In this document: positions 16,995-54,310 of the stretch, one piece after another | How positions within the stretch are numbered: the first letter of the stretch is position 1 | Layout: each line of letters begins with the position of its first letter | Notes under the pieces: generated by a model | Seen by the model: only the letters and a program-made list of their open reading frames with translations | Told to the model about the DNA's origin: nothing | Database searches by the model: none | Position numbers and translations under genes: made by a program | Source: Ferrovibrio sp. | GTDB lineage: Bacteria > Pseudomonadota > Alphaproteobacteria > Ferrovibrionales > Ferrovibrionaceae | Assembly: GCF_029255545.1 (NCBI RefSeq) | Contig: NZ_JANLJJ010000038.1 | Location: 1-60,693 of the forward strand | Reading direction: 5' to 3' | DNA: 60,693 bases

Positions 16995-17320
16995 GACTGC
17001 GCCTCCTGCATTTTCAGCATCTGATCGTAGACCATATCGGCAATACCGATGCCGCGGCTTTTGGCCATCTCGCGGCCGTATTGATCGTTGAGGAAGGAGC
17101 GCCAGGTCGCTTCGGCCTGACCGCCACCCATCGGACCATCGGTTTTGAGATCCTTGGACATGAATTCAAAGAACTGCGTGAGGAAGAATGCCTCGAAGTC
17201 CTCGGCTGCTTTGCGGGCGCCGCCGGTTGCACGGCCGCCCGTGTCGCTGCGCAGGCGATCGGTGCGCGCCTGCTCGATGGCGTAGGAGTTGATGGCGGGC
17301 GAAGAGACCAGGGTCGACAT
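16991..17320 (-). CDS. flgJ: Rod-binding protein (FlgJ N-terminal domain only)
   Basis: A 109-aa protein. [20 protein letters not shown] and the ending [16 protein letters not shown] match the rod-capping domain of FlgJ. The C-terminal muramidase domain of enterobacterial FlgJ is absent, as is usual in alphaproteobacteria where a separate enzyme is used. The ATG at 17320 overlaps the flgI stop by one base (TGATG), so it is preferred over the GTG three bases upstream. It is coupled to flgI and to the flgN-like gene. Confidence 0.88.
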
Positions 17321-18657
17321 CACATCACCTGTATTTCGGCCTGCAGCGCGCCTGCGGCCTTGATCGCCTGCAGGATGGTGATCATGTCGCGCGGACCGAC
17401 GCCGAGGGCATTGAGGCCATCAACCAGTTCTTGCAGCGAGACGCCGCGCTTGAGGATGCCGAGGCGGCGATCCGCCTGCTCATCGACCTGGATGTCGGTG
17501 CGCGGCACCACCACGGTCTGCGCGCCGCCGCCGATCTGGCCGGCCACGGTGGGCGTGCCGGTGCCGGGCACTGCCTGGGTGATGGTGTCGAACACGAAAT
17601 TGCCAGACGCATCCTTCACAGGCAGGCCATCCGGGCCGATACGCGGAACCTGCACGGTGCCGGTGCTGGCCGACGTGCCGGCGATGCTGGCGACACTGGC
17701 TGGGCCAGGTGCAAAGGGACTCGGCTGCGAAACCTGTGGGGTTTCCGTGATGCGGACGGTAAGCGAGCCCTGGGCGATGGCGACGGTATCGATGCGCACA
17801 TTCGGGCCCATCACAATGGTACCAGAGCGCTCATCAATCACCACGCGGGCCATCTGGTCGGGCTCGACCTGCAACTGCTCGACTTCGGTCATGAAACCGA
17901 TGATGTCGCGACGGTAACGCTCAGGAATGTCGATATGCACGGTGCTGGGGTCCAGCGCGCGTGCCGTCGGGGTACCGGCCAGGGTCGAAACCGCCTGGCT
18001 GATCCGGCGCGCCGTGGTGAGATCCGGATTTTTCAGGGCCAGACGCAGCACCGGCAGCGAGGCAAGTTCGAAGCCGACTTCGCGCTCGACGATGGCACCG
18101 TTGGCGATACGACCCGAGGTCGGCACGCCACGGGTGACCTGGGCGGCGGCGCCCTGGGCCTTGAAACCGCTGATCGCGATGGCGCCCTGGGCGACACCGT
18201 AGACCTCGCCGTCGGCGCCGAGCAGGGGGGTAACCAGCAGGGTGCCGCCCTGCAGGCTCTTGGCATCGCCCATGGTCGAGACATTCACGTCGATGCGGCT
18301 GCCATGACGCGAGAAGGGCGGCAGCGAAGCCGTCACCATCACGGCGGCAAGATTCTGGGTGCGGAAAGTGCCGGCATCGCGGATATTGACGCCGAACCGT
18401 TCCAGCATCGCCTGCAGGCTCTGGCGGGTGAACGGGGCGTTGGTCAGGCTGTCGCCGGTGCCATCCAGACCGACCACGAGGCCATAGCCGACCAGCATGT
18501 TGTCGCGGATGCCCTCGAAATCGGCGATGTCTTTGATACGCGAGGCGCCCTGGGCGGTGCCGCTTGTGACGGCCGCCAGCAGAAGACTGCAAGCCAGGGC
18601 CGTCCGGGCCAGGCGGTGCAGCAGGGTCTGGATGCGATCACGGGCGAAGCTGGACAT
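17320..18657 (-). CDS. flgI: Flagellar P-ring protein FlgI
   Basis: A 445-aa exported protein with a signal peptide ([23 protein letters not shown]) that forms the periplasmic P ring around the rod. [26 protein letters not shown] is nearly invariant in the family, as is the C-terminal [24 protein letters not shown]. Usual length is about 370 aa; here a 64-residue Gly/Pro/Thr/Ala-rich insert lies at about residues 316-379, between [12 protein letters not shown] and [12 protein letters not shown]. The ATG at 18657 follows an AAGGAAG ribosome site. A sigma-54 promoter lies at 18712-18727. Confidence 0.95.
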
Positions 18658-18711: not shown

Positions 18712-18727
18712 TGCGAAGGACGTGCCA
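18712..18727 (-). promoter_or_regulatory. Sigma-54 promoter of flgI-flgJ-flgN
   Basis: On the minus strand TTGGCACG-TCCT-TCGCA matches the -24/-12 consensus with GG and GC ten bases apart and one mismatch in the -12 part. Transcription would start near 18700, giving a leader of about 43 bases before the flgI ATG. Confidence 0.85.
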
Positions 18728-18779
18728 ATGGTTAATGTGTTGAAAACGCATGATTTTATATCCAGTTCACCTTTGCATG

Positions 18780-18794
18780 CGGCAAAAAATGCCG
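18780..18794. promoter_or_regulatory. CGGCA-N5-TGCCG palindrome, probable enhancer site
   Basis: A perfect palindrome with an A5 centre, about 67 bases upstream of the flgI sigma-54 promoter and 58 bases before fliX. The same palindrome occurs at 23300-23314 upstream of the other sigma-54 promoter in the window. It is probably the binding site of an NtrC-family activator such as FlbD. Confidence 0.7.
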
Positions 18795-18851
18795 GCTTTA
18801 CCCGGTCAGTCTTATCGGGCACGATGCAAAACAGGACGGATCACAAATCCC

Positions 18852-19280
18852 ATGAGCATCGATAAAATCAAAGGCCCAGGCGGTATTGCGCCGGGGGCTC
18901 CCAAGCGTACGAGCGGCGGCGGCAGTGCCGGCGGCCCCAGCTTTGCCAGCCTGCTGAAAGGCGCCGACAAGCCTGCCGGCCAGGTGGCGCAGGCCGCGCC
19001 GATGGCGGCTCTGGATGCCATGCTGACCATCCAGGCCGTGGATGATCAGGCCGGACGGCAGAATCGGCAGCGTGCGTTCCGGCGCGGCTCCACATTGCTG
19101 GAAAAGCTTGATGAGATCCGCCATGGCCTGCTGGAAGGCCGGATGCCGGCGTCTCGGTTGCAGGCTTTGGCCCAGGCCCTGCGCACCGAGAAAATGGGGA
19201 TCGAAGACCCCAAACTGGCCGAGCTTGTGGCCGAAATCGAACTCCGTTGCGAGGTTGAATTAGCCAAGCTCGGGCTCTGA
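18852..19280 (+). CDS. fliX: Flagellar assembly regulator FliX
   Basis: A 142-aa soluble protein. A low-complexity Gly/Ser-rich N-terminus (residues 8-30) is followed by SFASLL and a helical C-terminal half with AALDAMLTIQAVDD and RGSTLLEKLDEIRHGLLEG, the FliX pattern. In Caulobacter FliX links basal-body assembly to activity of the sigma-54 activator FlbD. Its divergent position from flgI is the same as in Caulobacter. The ATG at 18852 gives the family's normal length; in-frame extensions upstream overlap the enhancer palindrome. Confidence 0.88.
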   Translation: MSIDKIKGPGGIAPGAPKRTSGGGSAGGPSFASLLKGADKPAGQVAQAAPMAALDAMLTIQAVDDQAGRQNRQRAFRRGSTLLEKLDEIRHGLLEGRMPASRLQALAQALRTEKMGIEDPKLAELVAEIELRCEVELAKLGL

Positions 19281-19352
19281 ATCTGTTAATCCGTATTCGG
19301 ACGTTTCGCAATTTTTTCAAAAAATCAAAGGCTTCCAGGCAGTTCGACGGCC

Positions 19353-19381
19353 TTGCTCCGGACGGGGTCGATTCATATACT
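19353..19381 (+). promoter_or_regulatory. Sigma-70 type promoter of dksA
   Basis: TTGCTC (19353-19358) and TATACT (19376-19381) are 17 bases apart. Transcription would start near 19388, at the base of a strong hairpin. Confidence 0.6.
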
Positions 19382-19386
19382 CCCGC

Positions 19387-19422
19387 GCGCCGCGGCCGGG
19401 GGTCCCGGAGTCGCCGCGGCGC
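19387..19422 (+). other. GC-only leader hairpin directly before the dksA ribosome site
   Basis: GCGCCGCGGC (19387-19396) pairs perfectly with GCCGCGGCGC (19413-19422), and CCGGG/CCCGG can extend it inwards. It would be the first structure of the dksA mRNA and ends two bases before the GGAGGG ribosome site. Confidence 0.6.
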
Positions 19423-19438
19423 CTGGAGGGTCTCTTAC

Positions 19439-19858
19439 ATGGGTATCCAATTGAAGGCGAATTATCGGCCGACCGAGAGTGAGTCCTTCATGAACCCGCG
19501 CATGAAGGAATACTTCCGCCGCAAGCTGCTGGCCTGGAAGGAAGAAATTCTGCGGGAATCCAACCAAACCCTGCAGCATCTGCAGGAGGACACAACTCAG
19601 GAACCGGATATTGCCGATCGTGCCTCGACCGAGACCGATCGGGCTCTGGAACTGCGTACCCGCGATCGCCAGCGCAAGCTGATCTCCAAGATCGATGCGG
19701 CGCTGAAACGGATCGAGGACGGTTCCTATGGCTATTGCGAGGAGACCGGCGAGCCGATCTCGCTCAAGCGCCTTGAGGCCCGTCCGATCGCCACGCTGTC
19801 GATCGAGGCCCAGGAACGGCACGAGCGTCGTGAGCGTACCCATCGCGACGACATGTAG
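19439..19858 (+). CDS. dksA: RNA polymerase-binding transcription factor DksA
   Basis: A 139-aa coiled-coil regulator that, with ppGpp, alters RNA polymerase initiation. FMNPRMKEYFRRKLLAWKEEI opens the coiled coil, the tip carries DIADRASTETDRA, and GSYGYCEETGEPISLKRLEARP is the C-terminal zinc-finger fold. Only the first of four zinc-binding cysteines remains (the others are Thr, Ser and Ala), as in many alphaproteobacterial DksA proteins, so zinc binding is unlikely. GGAGGG precedes the ATG. It sits between the two minus-strand flagellar operons, as in Caulobacter, and ends at a strong terminator. Confidence 0.92.
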   Translation: MGIQLKANYRPTESESFMNPRMKEYFRRKLLAWKEEILRESNQTLQHLQEDTTQEPDIADRASTETDRALELRTRDRQRKLISKIDAALKRIEDGSYGYCEETGEPISLKRLEARPIATLSIEAQERHERRERTHRDDM

Positions 19859-19882
19859 CATCTTCCGGCCAGCTGGAATGAC

Positions 19883-19911
19883 GAAAAGGCCGGTCTTCTG
19901 ACCGGCCTTTT
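19883..19911. terminator. Bidirectional rho-independent terminator (dksA / flgH)
   Basis: AAAA precedes GGCCGGTC-TTCT-GACCGGCC, an 8-bp stem followed by TTTT. It serves dksA on the plus strand and flgH on the minus strand. Confidence 0.9.
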
Positions 19912-20010
19912 GCGTTTTCCACACCCCTGGCGTTTTGCCGCGGTCCGCTTCCTGCGGTCCTGACGCACGTTCTGGCGCGCCCGCATTGCGGGCGGGGTGG
20001 ATGCTCCCGA

Positions 20011-20787
20011 TCAGAACGGGAAGACTACGTCGAAGATCTGCTGACCCCAGCGACCCTGCTGGACGTCGGTGAGCTGGCCGCGACCGCCATAGGAAATCCG
20101 CGCTTCGGCCATCTGGGTATGAGTGATGGTATTGGTAGCCGTGATGTCTTCCGGCCGTACGATGCCCTTGATCAGCAATTCGCGTATCTCGCTGTTCACC
20201 CGGATTTCCTGACGCCCCTGCACCACCATGTTGCCGTTCGGCAGGATCTGGGTGACCAGTGCCGCGACGCTGAGCGTAATCTGCTCCTGGCGATTGATCT
20301 GGCCCTGGCCCTGCACGCCTGACGTCGAGCTCATGCCGACCAGATTGCTGGCGTCGACGCCATTGAAAATGCGTTCCAGCGCGCCGCCGGCGGCTTCGAT
20401 ACCGAGGAAATTGGGCAGTCCCTGCGTCTCGCTGTTGTCGCGCGAGGTCGTGGTATTGTTCTGCAGCTGGGCGCGTTCCTGGATATTGATGTTGACGGTC
20501 AGGATGTCGCCCACCTTGGTGGCGCGCGGATCTTTGAAGAACTGGCGCGCACCCGGGCGCCACAGCGAATTGGCATGCCGCGGCGTCACTTCGGGCGCCG
20601 GCATCGGCAGGCTGACGGCGCGGTAATCACGCTGTTCCGTCGGATTGTCGATCTTGCTGAGCGGCGGCGCCGAGCCGACATCGGCCAGGCGGCTGAGATT
20701 GCCGCAGGCACCCATGGTAACGGCCAGGCCGGCAATGGCGGCAAGGCGCAGGGTGGCGGTGAGCGGGGCGGGGTTGAGGCGGAGCAT
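20011..20787 (-). CDS. flgH: Flagellar L-ring lipoprotein FlgH
   Basis: A 258-aa outer-membrane lipoprotein forming the L ring. The signal peptide ends in VTMGAC, a lipobox whose Cys would be lipidated. ARQFFKDPRATKVGDILTV and IVRPEDITATNTITHTQMAEA are typical FlgH segments, ending in FDVVFPF. AAGGA eight bases before the ATG at 20787 supports this start; an ATG at 20817 that overlaps the flgA stop would add ten residues and is the alternative. It is last of flgF-flgG-flgA-flgH. Confidence 0.92.
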   Translation of the reverse strand: MLRLNPAPLTATLRLAAIAGLAVTMGACGNLSRLADVGSAPPLSKIDNPTEQRDYRAVSLPMPAPEVTPRHANSLWRPGARQFFKDPRATKVGDILTVNINIQERAQLQNNTTTSRDNSETQGLPNFLGIEAAGGALERIFNGVDASNLVGMSSTSGVQGQGQINRQEQITLSVAALVTQILPNGNMVVQGRQEIRVNSEIRELLIKGIVRPEDITATNTITHTQMAEARISYGGRGQLTDVQQGRWGQQIFDVVFPF

Positions 20788-20816
20788 GGTAATCATCCTT
20801 CTCTGCTCGGCTTTCA

Positions 20817-21590
20817 TCAGTTCAACACAACCAGGCTGGGTGCAGTGATGACCTGAACCTGGTTCAAGCCAGTCACCGTCGCCTGCACGGTTTTCTTGCT
20901 CTGCAAATTCATCACCTGGATCACGTCACCCAGGCTGCCGGCTTCGATGGCGCGGCCCGTCGTGGTGATGGTCAGGCCGGGACCCTGGGCCACCATGGTG
21001 ATCAGACTGTTCTTGGTGATCACTTCGGGCGTGCCGATATCGGCGCTACGCAGCGGCAGGCCGGCGGCCAGCGGGCGGCGCGGACTCTGGCCGATCAGGT
21101 CTTCGATGCGGTCGATATACCCGCCGCCGTAGCGGCCGGCGGGTACCTGCATCCATTCGACATCGGACTTGGTGATCGTCTGGCCTGCGGCAATGCGGTT
21201 TTTCAACACCGGCAGGGATTCGATCGGCTGGGCACGGCCGCTGAAACGGACGGCCTCGCCACGGCCGGGCGTGGTCAGGGCGGCAATGAAGCGACCACTG
21301 CGCGAGTCGAAGGAGAAGCTCTCGACCTGCAGGACGGCCTGACCGGCCGGCGGCACCTCGATGATATTGTCCATGCCGTGGAAATGGATTTCCACCGGCT
21401 GGCCACCATTGCGCTGCTGCACCAGGCCGGCAATTCGCTTGGCCACTTCGCGTTCGCCGATGATGCGGCCGGCGCCACTGCCAACCGATGCCAGCTGTGT
21501 CTGCGCGGCAGCCGCCTGCGACAGGGCCAGCGGCAGGACCAGTGCGGCAGTGGCGAGACCGGCGAGAAGGAAAGAGCGAAGCGGGGCCAT
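20817..21590 (-). CDS. flgA: Flagellar P-ring assembly chaperone FlgA
   Basis: A 257-aa periplasmic protein with a signal peptide (FLLAGLATAALVLPLALSQAAAA). The C-terminal SAF/ChapFlgA domain is visible: PVLKNRIAAGQTITKSDVEWM, GQSPRRPLAAGLPLRSADI and GRAIEAGSLGDVIQVMNLQSKK. It assists FlgI polymerisation around the rod. A GGAGA ribosome site precedes the start. It sits between flgG and flgH in the operon that begins at flgF. Confidence 0.92.
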   Translation of the reverse strand: MAPLRSFLLAGLATAALVLPLALSQAAAAQTQLASVGSGAGRIIGEREVAKRIAGLVQQRNGGQPVEIHFHGMDNIIEVPPAGQAVLQVESFSFDSRSGRFIAALTTPGRGEAVRFSGRAQPIESLPVLKNRIAAGQTITKSDVEWMQVPAGRYGGGYIDRIEDLIGQSPRRPLAAGLPLRSADIGTPEVITKNSLITMVAQGPGLTITTTGRAIEAGSLGDVIQVMNLQSKKTVQATVTGLNQVQVITAPSLVVLN

Positions 21591-21619
21591 GGCGTATCTC
21601 CGTGTGTCGGATCAGTGCG

Positions 21620-22405
21620 TCAGCGCAGCCGGGTAGCGGTCTGCAGCATTTCGTCAGACGCCGTGATCGTCTTGGAATTCATTTCGTAGGCGCGCTGTGC
21701 CGTGATCAGGTTGGTGATTTCCTGAACCGGATTGACGTTCGAAGTTTCGACATAACCCTGGCGCAGGGTGCCGAACCCCACCGCATTCGGATTGCCGACG
21801 GTCGGCTGGCCGGAAGCCGCGGTCTCCAGGAACAGGTTGTCGCCGGTCGCTTCCAGGCCCGCCTCGTTGATGAAGGTGGCGAGCTGGATTTGGCCGAGCT
21901 GCTGGGCATTGGCCTGGCCCGCGATCCGCGCCTCCACGATGCCGGTGGCATCGATGCTGACCGACAGCGAACCCTGCGGCACGGTGATGGCCGGATTTAG
22001 CAGGTAGCCGTCGACTGTGACGATCTGGCCCTGGGCGTTGACCTGGAACGAACCGGCGCGGGTATAGGCGGTTTCACCTGAGGGCAGGGTGATCTGGAAG
22101 TAGCCCTTGCCGCTGATCGCCAGGTCGTAGGTATTGCCGGTCGTGGTCAGGTTGCCCTGTTCGTGAATACGGTAGACGCCCGCCGTACGCACGCCGACGC
22201 CGATCTGGATGCCCGAGGGCACGATGGTGTTGGCATCGGACGAGGACGAGCCAGGGCGGCGCATGTTCTGGTACAGCAGGTCCTGGAATTCCGCACGCTG
22301 GCGCTTGAATGCCGTCGTGCTCATATTGGCGATGTTGTTCGAGATCACCTCGACATTGAGCTGCTGGGCCATCATGCCGGTGGCGCCGGTGCTGAGCGAA
22401 CGCAT
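21620..22405 (-). CDS. flgG: Distal rod protein FlgG
   Basis: A 261-aa rod protein of normal length. The N-terminal helix MRSLSTGATGMMAQQLNVEV followed by SNNIANMSTTAFKRQRAEF is the flagellar rod motif, and the C-terminal YVETSNVNPVQEITNLI plus AYEMNSKTI closes the D0 domain. It is exported by the flagellar type III apparatus, so no signal peptide is expected. AGGAGA precedes the start. It follows flgF by 25 bases. Confidence 0.96.
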   Translation of the reverse strand: MRSLSTGATGMMAQQLNVEVISNNIANMSTTAFKRQRAEFQDLLYQNMRRPGSSSSDANTIVPSGIQIGVGVRTAGVYRIHEQGNLTTTGNTYDLAISGKGYFQITLPSGETAYTRAGSFQVNAQGQIVTVDGYLLNPAITVPQGSLSVSIDATGIVEARIAGQANAQQLGQIQLATFINEAGLEATGDNLFLETAASGQPTVGNPNAVGFGTLRQGYVETSNVNPVQEITNLITAQRAYEMNSKTITASDEMLQTATRLR

Positions 22406-22430
22406 GGTTGGTTCTCCTGCTCTCTAAAAC

Positions 22431-23159
22431 TTACGTGGTGCTGCGGCCAAGCCGCTGGATCGCGGTGCGCTGGCGCTCGTGCTCGGCATCCATCAGGCTC
22501 TGCGTGCCCTGATACTGCCGCAGCAATTCCATCATGGTCGTCATCTCGATGATCGGTTCGACATTCGAGGCTTCCAGCATGCCTTGCACCAGCGTGCTGC
22601 TGGCCGGAGCGACCTGCGGTTCCTGGGTGGTGGCGTAGAGGCCCTGTGCGGTCTTGCGCAGTTCCTGCTCGCTCTCGAAGGTGACCAGATCAATCTTGCC
22701 GAGCTGCTGCTGGCCAACGGTGATGGTGCCGTCGGTGGCGATCACCGGGATATCCTGGGCATCCGGCGGAATGATGATGTCGCGGCCGCGGTTATCGAGC
22801 ACCGGGTGGCCACCGGAGGTCACCAGGCGGCGGTCGGTATCCAGGCGCAGATGGCCGTCGCGCGTATACCGGCGGCCCTGCGGGGTATCGACCGTCAGAA
22901 AGCCGTTGCCGGCGATGGCCAGGTCGTAGGTATTGCCGGTCTGCTCCAGCTTGCCGACACGGTTATCGCGCAGAACTGCGAAGTCGTTGACAAAGCTGAC
23001 CTTTTTACCCTGGGTTGGCCCTTTCAGGTATTCTTCGAACAGCACCCGCTCGCCCTTGTAGGCGTTGGTATTCATATTCGCCAGGTTGTTGGCCAGTGCG
23101 TCCATCTCGCGACGCATGGTCGAGAGGCGGGAGAGGCCGATATAGGATGCGTTTTCCAT
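22431..23159 (-). CDS. flgF: Proximal rod protein FlgF
   Basis: A 242-aa rod protein. The N-terminal YIGLSRLSTMRREMDALANN with LANMNTNAYKGERVLF and the C-terminal LEASNVEPIIEMTTMMELLR match FlgF. It is the first gene of flgF-flgG-flgA-flgH. A sigma-54 promoter at 23199-23214 gives an expected leader of about 29 bases; the ribosome site is weak. Confidence 0.94.
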   Translation of the reverse strand: MENASYIGLSRLSTMRREMDALANNLANMNTNAYKGERVLFEEYLKGPTQGKKVSFVNDFAVLRDNRVGKLEQTGNTYDLAIAGNGFLTVDTPQGRRYTRDGHLRLDTDRRLVTSGGHPVLDNRGRDIIIPPDAQDIPVIATDGTITVGQQQLGKIDLVTFESEQELRKTAQGLYATTQEPQVAPASSTLVQGMLEASNVEPIIEMTTMMELLRQYQGTQSLMDAEHERQRTAIQRLGRSTT

Positions 23160-23198
23160 GACACCAAACTCGCGTTTAGCTGTTGCTGCCCCTTCTTC

Positions 23199-23214
23199 TG
23201 CAGGCTACGTGCCA
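23199..23214 (-). promoter_or_regulatory. Sigma-54 promoter of flgF-flgG-flgA-flgH
   Basis: On the minus strand TTGGCACG-TAGC-CTGCA matches the -24/-12 consensus with GG and GC ten bases apart and one mismatch. Transcription would start near 23188. Confidence 0.88.
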
Positions 23215-23299
23215 AGTTTATTTTTCCCAGAAAATTGGCAAAAAAATTGGTTAATTTGGACGATATGGGCATTTTGGCCGGGGCCGGGGAAGGGTGACT

Positions 23300-23314
23300 C
23301 GGCAAATTCTGCCG
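23300..23314. promoter_or_regulatory. CGGCA-N5-TGCCG palindrome, probable enhancer site
   Basis: CGGCA-AATTC-TGCCG is centred 100 bases upstream of the flgF sigma-54 promoter and about 87 bases before the fliL ATG. It is identical in its arms to the palindrome at 18780-18794. Confidence 0.7.
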
Positions 23315-23393: not shown

Positions 23394-23888
23394 ATGAGTG
23401 ACGAGACCGAAGGCCAAGAGGGCGAAGAGCTCGAAGGCAAGAAGAAGAAAGGCAAGCGGGCGATCGTCATCATCGCCATTGCCGTTGTGCTGCTGCTCGT
23501 CCTCGGCGGTGGTGGTGCGGCCTATTTCTTCCTCTTCGCAGGCAAGAGCGAGGAAGCAGAGGTCAAGCCTGAAGCGCCGAAAGTGACGGTTTTCTACGAT
23601 TTGCCAGATATTCTGGTGAACCTGAATTCCACCGGCCGCCAGGCATCCTATCTGAAGCTCAAGGTGGCGCTGGAGCATAATGACCCGCTGGCAACGCCGA
23701 AGCTGAACGAGCTGCTGCCGCGGGTGACGGACAATTTCCAGATCTATCTGCGCGAACTGCGTCCGGATGATCTGGTCGGTTCGGCTGGTTTGTATCGGCT
23801 GAAGGAAGAGCTGCTGATCCGCGTTAATCAGGCGGTCGCCCCGATCAAGATCAACGATGTGCTGTTCAAGGAGATGTTGATCCAGTGA
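23394..23888 (+). CDS. fliL: Flagellar basal-body protein FliL
   Basis: A 164-aa single-pass inner-membrane protein. A charged N-terminus (EGKKKKGKR) precedes the membrane helix AIVIIAIAVVLLLVLGGGGA, followed by a periplasmic stomatin-like domain with VFYDLPDILVNLNSTGRQ and the C-terminal FKEMLIQ. It associates with the stator and supports torque. It is followed after 15 bases by fliM, starting a plus-strand operon through the motE-like gene. Confidence 0.93.
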   Translation: MSDETEGQEGEELEGKKKKGKRAIVIIAIAVVLLLVLGGGGAAYFFLFAGKSEEAEVKPEAPKVTVFYDLPDILVNLNSTGRQASYLKLKVALEHNDPLATPKLNELLPRVTDNFQIYLRELRPDDLVGSAGLYRLKEELLIRVNQAVAPIKINDVLFKEMLIQ

Positions 23889-53587: not shown

Positions 53588-54310
53588 TTGCCAATGGCCG
53601 CGTCGGACCTTTCCGAGCCCGCGGTGGACCCGGCATACCTTGCCGCCACCCCTTTCATCGATAGCGATCATGCGGCCGTGCGCGCGTTTGCCCGTGCGGC
53701 GGCCGGCGACGAGACGGACCCCAGGGCCAAGGCGATCCGGCTCTATTACGCGGTGCGCGACCGCTTCCTCTACGATCCCTATTCCGTCGAAGTCAGCCAG
53801 GATGGCATGCGCGCCTCCGGCGTGATCGAGCGTGGTAAGGGCTTCTGCGTCAACAAGGCGATCCTGCTGGCGGCCGTGGCGCGGGCCGAGGGCATTCCGG
53901 CGCGGCTGGGCCTGGCCGATGTGAAGAACCACCTGGCCACCGAGCGCCTGCGCGCCCAGATGGGCACCGATATCTTCTACTATCACGGCTATACGGAACT
54001 CCATATCGAGGGCAGATGGGTGAAGGCGACGCCGGCCTTCAACCTGGCGCTCTGCGAGAAATTCCGCGTGTTGCCGCTCGAATTCGATGGCGAAACGGAC
54101 TCGGTGTTCCATCCTTTCGACGCCGACAACCGCCGCCACATGGAATACGTCGCCGATCGCGGCAGCTTTGCCGACCTGCCATTCGCCGAATGGCGCGACG
54201 CGATGCTGACCTACTATCCCGACCTGATGAAAGAAGACCGCAACGGTGGTGACTTCGCCGCCGAGGCGGCTGCCGAAAACAACAAAAAGCCCCAGACCAG
54301 ACCCGCGTGA
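53588..54310 (+). CDS. Transglutaminase-like family protein
   Basis: A 240-aa protein with the papain-like transglutaminase core. The catalytic Cys lies in GVIERGKGFCVNKAILLAAV, followed by GIPARLGLADVKNHLAT; the His lies in YYHGYTELHIEGRWVKATPAFN. It probably acts as a cysteine protease or amide hydrolase; the target is unknown. AGGAG stands five bases before TTG (53588) and eleven before ATG (53594), so the start is uncertain by two residues. It is 15 bases upstream of guaB. Confidence 0.85.
   Translation: MPMAASDLSEPAVDPAYLAATPFIDSDHAAVRAFARAAAGDETDPRAKAIRLYYAVRDRFLYDPYSVEVSQDGMRASGVIERGKGFCVNKAILLAAVARAEGIPARLGLADVKNHLATERLRAQMGTDIFYYHGYTELHIEGRWVKATPAFNLALCEKFRVLPLEFDGETDSVFHPFDADNRRHMEYVADRGSFADLPFAEWRDAMLTYYPDLMKEDRNGGDFAAEAAAENNKKPQTRPA

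Follow-up and report, generated by a model that had tools for sequence, protein, structure and literature searches.

A CGGCA-N5-TGCCG palindrome as a predicted FlbD enhancer of late flagellar sigma-54 promoters in Ferrovibrio and related Alphaproteobacteria

The locus studied here raises the question of what a palindrome shared by two flagellar promoters is for. The window, a 60,693-nucleotide stretch of Ferrovibrio sp. DNA (contig NZ_JANLJJ010000038.1), contains sigma-54-like promoters in front of flgI and flgF, each with a perfect CGGCA-N5-TGCCG palindrome upstream of it. A preliminary description of the sequence had proposed that this palindrome is the enhancer recognized by FlbD, the flagellar activator that acts with FliX. 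Our analysis supports this proposal: the pairing of palindrome and promoter, conservation at both promoters, co-occurrence with FliX and the presence of an FlbD gene all point to an ftr-like upstream enhancer of FlbD for late flagellar sigma-54 promoters, a reading to which we assign a probability of about 0.88 and in which binding is predicted from sequence. The features on which the question turns are as follows.

18780-18794, palindrome CGGCA-AAAAA-TGCCG (CGGCAAAAAATGCCG), predicted FlbD enhancer on the flgI side
23300-23314, palindrome CGGCA-AATTC-TGCCG (CGGCAAATTCTGCCG), predicted FlbD enhancer on the flgF side
18713-18727, minus strand, flgI sigma-54-like promoter TGGCACG-TCCT-TCGC (pattern match)
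23200-23214, minus strand, flgF sigma-54-like promoter TGGCACG-TAGC-CTGC (pattern match)
17320-18657, minus strand, flgI, P-ring protein (PF02119, E-value 4.2e-137 for a longer open reading frame (ORF); ATG at 18657 read from the sequence)
18852-19280, plus strand, fliX, FlbD partner (PF10768, E-value 1.9e-35 for a longer ORF; ATG at 18852)
22431-23159, minus strand, flgF, rod protein (Pfam rod domains)
23394-23888, plus strand, fliL, divergent neighbour (PF03748, E-value 4.5e-19)
18733-18745, minus strand, integration host factor (IHF)-like sequence between the flgI promoter and its palindrome (one mismatch to WATCARNNNNTTR)

Both palindromes and both promoters lie where the preliminary description had placed them, and fliX is, as it stated, encoded between the two sites. 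The palindromes are upstream of their promoters at centre-to-centre distances of 68 bp (flgI) and 101 bp (flgF). The −24/−12 sigma-54 element is present at both promoters except that the −12 box is not TTGC, reading TCGC at flgI and CTGC at flgF. From reading of translations, flgF is followed in the same direction by flgG, flgA and flgH. The window holds three copies of the palindrome against 0.41 expected, a number reached in 1 of 100 shuffles; no sigma-54-like site was found within 250 bp of the third copy (53631-53645).

Pairing of palindrome and promoter across the genome

We defined a strict pair as the palindrome followed, 40-100 bp away, by TGGC-N-Y-N5-TTGC with the promoter pointing outward. 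This pattern demands TTGC at −12 and so excludes both founding sites, which makes the pair test independent of them. The genome contains seven strict pairs, all outside the window, where 0.13 would be expected from the separate counts of 51 palindromes and 176 promoter-like sites (P ~1e-10). Fifty of the 51 palindromes were readable (one is absent from the listing). For 11 of these, a sigma-54-like site pointing outward was found at a distance of 41-126 bp; they comprise both window copies that precede flgI and flgF and copies on contigs C25, C45, C48, C53, C70 (two copies sharing one promoter), C82, C94 and C17. Pairing was found for 9 of the 23 copies whose spacer has at least three A/T and for 2 of the remaining 27. 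Approached from the promoter side, TGGCACG-N5-TGC occurs at 19 genome sites. In the 230 bp upstream, four of these sites show a perfect palindrome, and the other 15 show none with fewer than two mismatches. The strict pair at C17:2917 was set aside as probably fortuitous; its spacer is GC-rich, and no ORF begins in the first 290 bp. Distances between palindrome and promoter (a list that includes two mispicked loci, L113 and L119) cluster, but no helical period stands out over the distinct values, and phasing was dropped as unproven.

Several of the marked genes are flagellar. The C70 pair precedes flgE and then flgK, and the C53 pair precedes fliK, flgD and a DUF1153 gene, with fliF, fliG, a gene for a 217-residue protein, fliN, flbD and flhA further along the contig. 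The C82 pair precedes a second flgE operon, from which a rod-type gene diverges. Other pairs mark a 240-residue GGDEF-domain protein (C45), a 340-residue protein with no Pfam or NCBIfam match (C25) and two proteins (190 residues on C48, 101 on C94) that match no Pfam family above the cut-off.

Conservation within the order

Across 18 genomes of the order, the flgI-fliX palindrome is perfect in 16 and has at most one mismatch in all 18. The main fliL locus, identified by fliL rather than by its flgF neighbour, carries a perfect palindrome in 12 of 17 cases and one with at most a single mismatch in 16 of 17. That count leaves out L122, where the sole one-mismatch copy is close to the FliL-coding match; in this genome flgF lies elsewhere and has a pair of its own (L251). 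Of two additional fliL copies, L137 contains a couple of one-mismatch palindromes, both G+C-rich, and L138 contains none. In a palindrome-anchored alignment of 17 loci, in which L113 and L119 were mispicked, the arms show 94-100% identity, compared with an average of 43-56% for the flanks. Spacers vary among genomes, but their first place is a purine in 77 of 84 and their last a pyrimidine in 79 of 84, giving the consensus CGGCAR-N3-YTGCCG. Order-wide, 57 pairs were found in the 18 genomes against 1 by the reversed control.

The flgI promoter pattern was matched at 16 of 18 flgI-fliX loci, with TCGC as the −12 box in 15 of the 16 (the window included) and CTGC in L105, and the promoter pattern at fliL loci was matched at 11 of 17, with CTGC in all 11. 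The non-consensus −12 box is thus promoter-specific across genomes, being TCGC for flgI and CTGC for flgF.

Co-occurrence with FliX in Alphaproteobacteria

To look beyond the order, 289 alphaproteobacterial genomes were scanned, yielding 136 pairs in 82 genomes against 5 by the reversed control (sums by hand). FliX is present in 80 of these 82 genomes. When only genomes of at least 3 Mb are considered, a pair occurs in 71 of 103 FliX-positive genomes and 2 of 38 FliX-negative ones (P 3.5e-12, a statistic that ignores kinship). In a phylum draw split by hand, pairs were found in 51 of 161 Alphaproteobacteria.

A set of named genomes provided 80 FliX loci, none titled Caulobacter, and 78 of these had sufficient upstream sequence. 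Judged by FliX, the named records closest to the window are Ferrovibrio. A short signature identified FlgI next to FliX at 19 of the 78 loci, of which 10 carry a perfect palindrome, 8 one with a single mismatch and 1 none; the 8 include Paramagnetospirillum, Magnetospirillum and Phaeospirillum, with the form TGCCC. At the 59 FliX loci with no recognized FlgI, the palindrome is perfect in 3, has one mismatch in 7 and is missing from 49.

The FlbD protein and a proposed mechanism

The genome encodes both partners, FliX (PF10768) and FlbD. The latter is a 456-residue protein on C53 that passes the NCBI FlbD model NF050807 with 808 bits (cut-off 750) and has a sigma-54 interaction domain, the GAFTGA motif and a Fis-type helix-turn-helix (HTH_8), its receiver domain falling under the cut-off for that domain. 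Its gene lies in the order fliF-fliG-x-fliN-flbD-flhA.

In the mechanism that we propose, a dimer of FlbD, an NtrC-family activator of sigma-54 RNA polymerase, would read the two CGGCA half-sites of an enhancer lying upstream, at a distance of some 58-125 bp, of a promoter of the TGGCAC..TTGC type. IHF would bend the intervening DNA at many of these promoters, and FlbD would then contact the sigma-54 polymerase through its GAFTGA loop and open the promoter. The trigger would be a signal from FliX that basal body and export gate have been completed, and the targets driven in the window would be flgI and flgF-flgG-flgA-flgH.

The role envisaged for IHF was suggested by WATCARNNNNTTR, which we take to be the IHF consensus. 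A perfect match lies between palindrome and promoter in 13 of 84 intervals, where base shuffles gave 0.36 (no more than 2 in any of 100), and a match within one mismatch in 41 of 84, where they gave 5.6 (no more than 12). As many intervals come from close relatives and the shuffles preserve single bases only, these counts do not amount to a formal test.

The palindromes abut the upstream regions of fliX (first site) and fliL (second site), so FlbD may also repress these two divergent genes. By eye, TTTACC was seen no more than a few bases from the right arm at 14 of 18 flgI-fliX loci, and TTTA-N7-TTAA, presumably a CtrA-like site, in five: 4 of the TTTACC loci and L119, where it is slightly further down. 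The full TTTA-N7-TTAA is not present at the flgI-fliX locus of the window. In Caulobacter, the early genes are reported to be turned on by CtrA, and FlbD to use ftr4 in repressing fliF (PMC3930126). The CtrA-like signal fits this published picture of CtrA and FlbD, and by analogy with the repression of fliF, FlbD may act likewise on fliX and fliL.

The arrangement as a whole resembles the class III/IV FlbD-ftr system of Caulobacter crescentus in having FlbD and FliX and an upstream site at sigma-54 promoters for ring, rod and hook genes, and possibly also in its use of IHF (PMC3096577, PMC3930126, PMC6180460). In Caulobacter, a dependence on both RpoN and FlbD has been reported for the rod, FlgI and FlgH genes (PMC6180460). 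Whereas Caulobacter flagellins are reported to be RpoN-dependent and FlbD-regulated (PMC3930126), no pair was found at the C55 and C99 flagellins. A map of FlbD sites in Caulobacter by Fumeaux et al. is cited in PMC12421884. No printed FlbD consensus was found in the available parts of PMC3096577, PMC3930126, PMC7064773, PMC4287350, PMC12421884, PMC10274813 and PMC6180460, and a term search of PMC7591256 for the letters of an FlbD site returned nothing. FlbD occupies the same tier of flagellar control as the FlrC/FleR-type activators of polar flagellates, but its partner is FliX, in place of the cognate kinase with which these activators work (PMC7064773).

The system is of a kind already known from Caulobacter, to which the present analysis adds a sequence rule and two unexpected gene families. 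NtrC-type enhancers consist of inverted half-sites with a short spacer. The palindrome is like them in having two half-sites that are presumably read by a dimer with a Fis-type helix-turn-helix, and probably differs in the letters of the half-sites.

Alternative explanations

Could the palindrome be nothing more than an inverted repeat that a G+C-rich genome happens to place near two promoters? The abundance of copies, 39 of the 50 readable ones with no outward sigma-54-like site, would agree with this, but pairing far above expectation, conservation at orthologous promoters, the link to FliX and arms better conserved than flanks across genera make coincidence extremely unlikely. A second possibility is that the site serves a different sigma-54 activator. 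The genome has four strong ones, and GAFTGA is found also in those at C11 and C35:30531, and the candidates would be the 646-residue protein at C11 and the two at C35, identified from their sequences as NtrC and NtrX. Many of the marked genes are nevertheless late flagellar genes, in this order and in others, the pair follows FliX, and at a strong sigma-54 site close to the C11 regulator, 230 bp contain no palindrome within two mismatches; we therefore consider such an assignment very unlikely. Finally, the palindrome might be mainly an operator that represses the divergent fliX and fliL, with other sites serving the sigma-54 promoters. The TTTACC and CtrA-like sequences beside the right arm could be taken in this sense, but flgE, fliK and other genes without fliX or fliL as divergent neighbours also have the palindrome, 58-125 bp from their sigma-54 sites, and a mainly repressive role is highly improbable.

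A number of observations do weigh against the palindrome being an FlbD enhancer. It is not rare by itself, since the 4.11 Mb genome has 51 copies of CGGCA-N5-TGCCG and 37 of the reversed pattern. Sigma-54-like sites are commoner than their reversal (176 versus 41), so the reversed control understates chance; the product of own-genome counts and the FliX-negative genomes were preferred to it as backgrounds. The flgB-flgC locus of the window, the two flagellin genes on C55 and C99 and the rod-type gene on C29 yielded no pair, their one-mismatch palindromes having G+C-rich spacers or no nearby sigma-54-like site. Two genomes of the order (G015 and G016) have zero strict pairs though their flgI palindromes are perfect, and among genomes of at least 3 Mb, 32 of the 103 FliX-positive ones have no strict pair while 2 FliX-negative ones do. 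Pairs also occur beyond Alphaproteobacteria, in 18 of 236 genomes (reversed control 1). At the flgF interval, the IHF-like sequence is no better than two mismatches, compared with one at flgI, and the likeness to ftr is one of context.

The preliminary description had held that the link would be fortuitous if the palindrome were common throughout the genome or absent upstream of other sigma-54 flagellar promoters. The palindrome did prove common, but its pairing with sigma-54 sites exceeds chance, and the genome scan recovered pairs at flgE, fliK-flgD and the second flgE operon, though not at flgB-flgC or the C55 and C99 flagellins.

The predicted regulon

When the 57 distinct pair sequences of the order were sorted by downstream gene, hook/rod types were the largest group (16, including one promoter counted twice for its two palindromes), followed by a family of 340-residue proteins (11), fliK (9) and diguanylate cyclases (7), the remainder being two unnamed-protein groups of 4 each, flagellins (2) and single cases (4). 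Outside the order, the first 40 of 121 pairs listed were surveyed. Downstream of these are flagellar structural genes in 23 cases (flgF-flgG, flgE, fliK-flgD, flgK, flgI, flagellins and a rod-binding protein, with the recognized gene about 2 kb away in a few). Seven pairs precede a member of the 340-residue family, one a diguanylate cyclase and one a DUF1217 protein, and the remaining 8 are followed by other genes or by no clear gene. Some of these 8 look like chance, such as the pair before an NMT1-type protein.

Members of the 340-residue family, which include the C25 protein (L016:4138-5160), share the motif NPLxHIPxVSxxYRxxTGD...GGALFGGPIG. At E-values up to 1, three Pfam families were matched, each in one or two of 10 members (best E-value 0.016), and these matches were judged to be noise. 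Structure prediction gave a mean predicted local distance difference test (pLDDT) score of 47.3 and a predicted template modelling (pTM) score of 0.20, and the structure was thus too poor for a fold search. The diguanylate cyclases of the order, among them the C45 protein (L027:3021-3743), read RLHGDEF in 7 of 7 with an invariant R..D five residues before, while the single cyclase outside the order reads GGDEF.

Both families are candidate targets, predicted from their promoter pairs. We tentatively suggest, at slightly less than even odds, that the FlbD regulon extends beyond flagellar structure, with the 340-residue family being conserved across Alphaproteobacteria as an unrecognized component of late flagellar assembly or substrate of export, and the cyclase tying completion of the basal body to cyclic di-GMP. 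The rule that emerges, CGGCAR-N3-YTGCCG followed at about 40-110 bp by a sigma-54 site, is searchable and would lead to late flagellar genes in many Alphaproteobacteria, including uncultivable ones. It flags concrete genes with no assigned function and a possible direct link between flagellum assembly and cyclic di-GMP.

Three further loci were recorded. A strong sigma-54 site at C11:77876-77890 (L036), near the gene for the 646-residue sigma-54 activator, is palindrome-free and probably belongs to a different regulon. The C82 region (L024, C82:34500-43000), which also has palindrome and promoter, encodes flgE, flgK-like and flagellin/flgL-like genes and the divergent rod-type gene, and its flgE operon perhaps specifies a second hook type. 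On C53 (L022:2175-3995), divergent from the fliK promoter, is a gene for a tetratricopeptide repeat protein with a C-terminal part resembling PrmA and arginine methyltransferases, which possibly modifies flagellar proteins.

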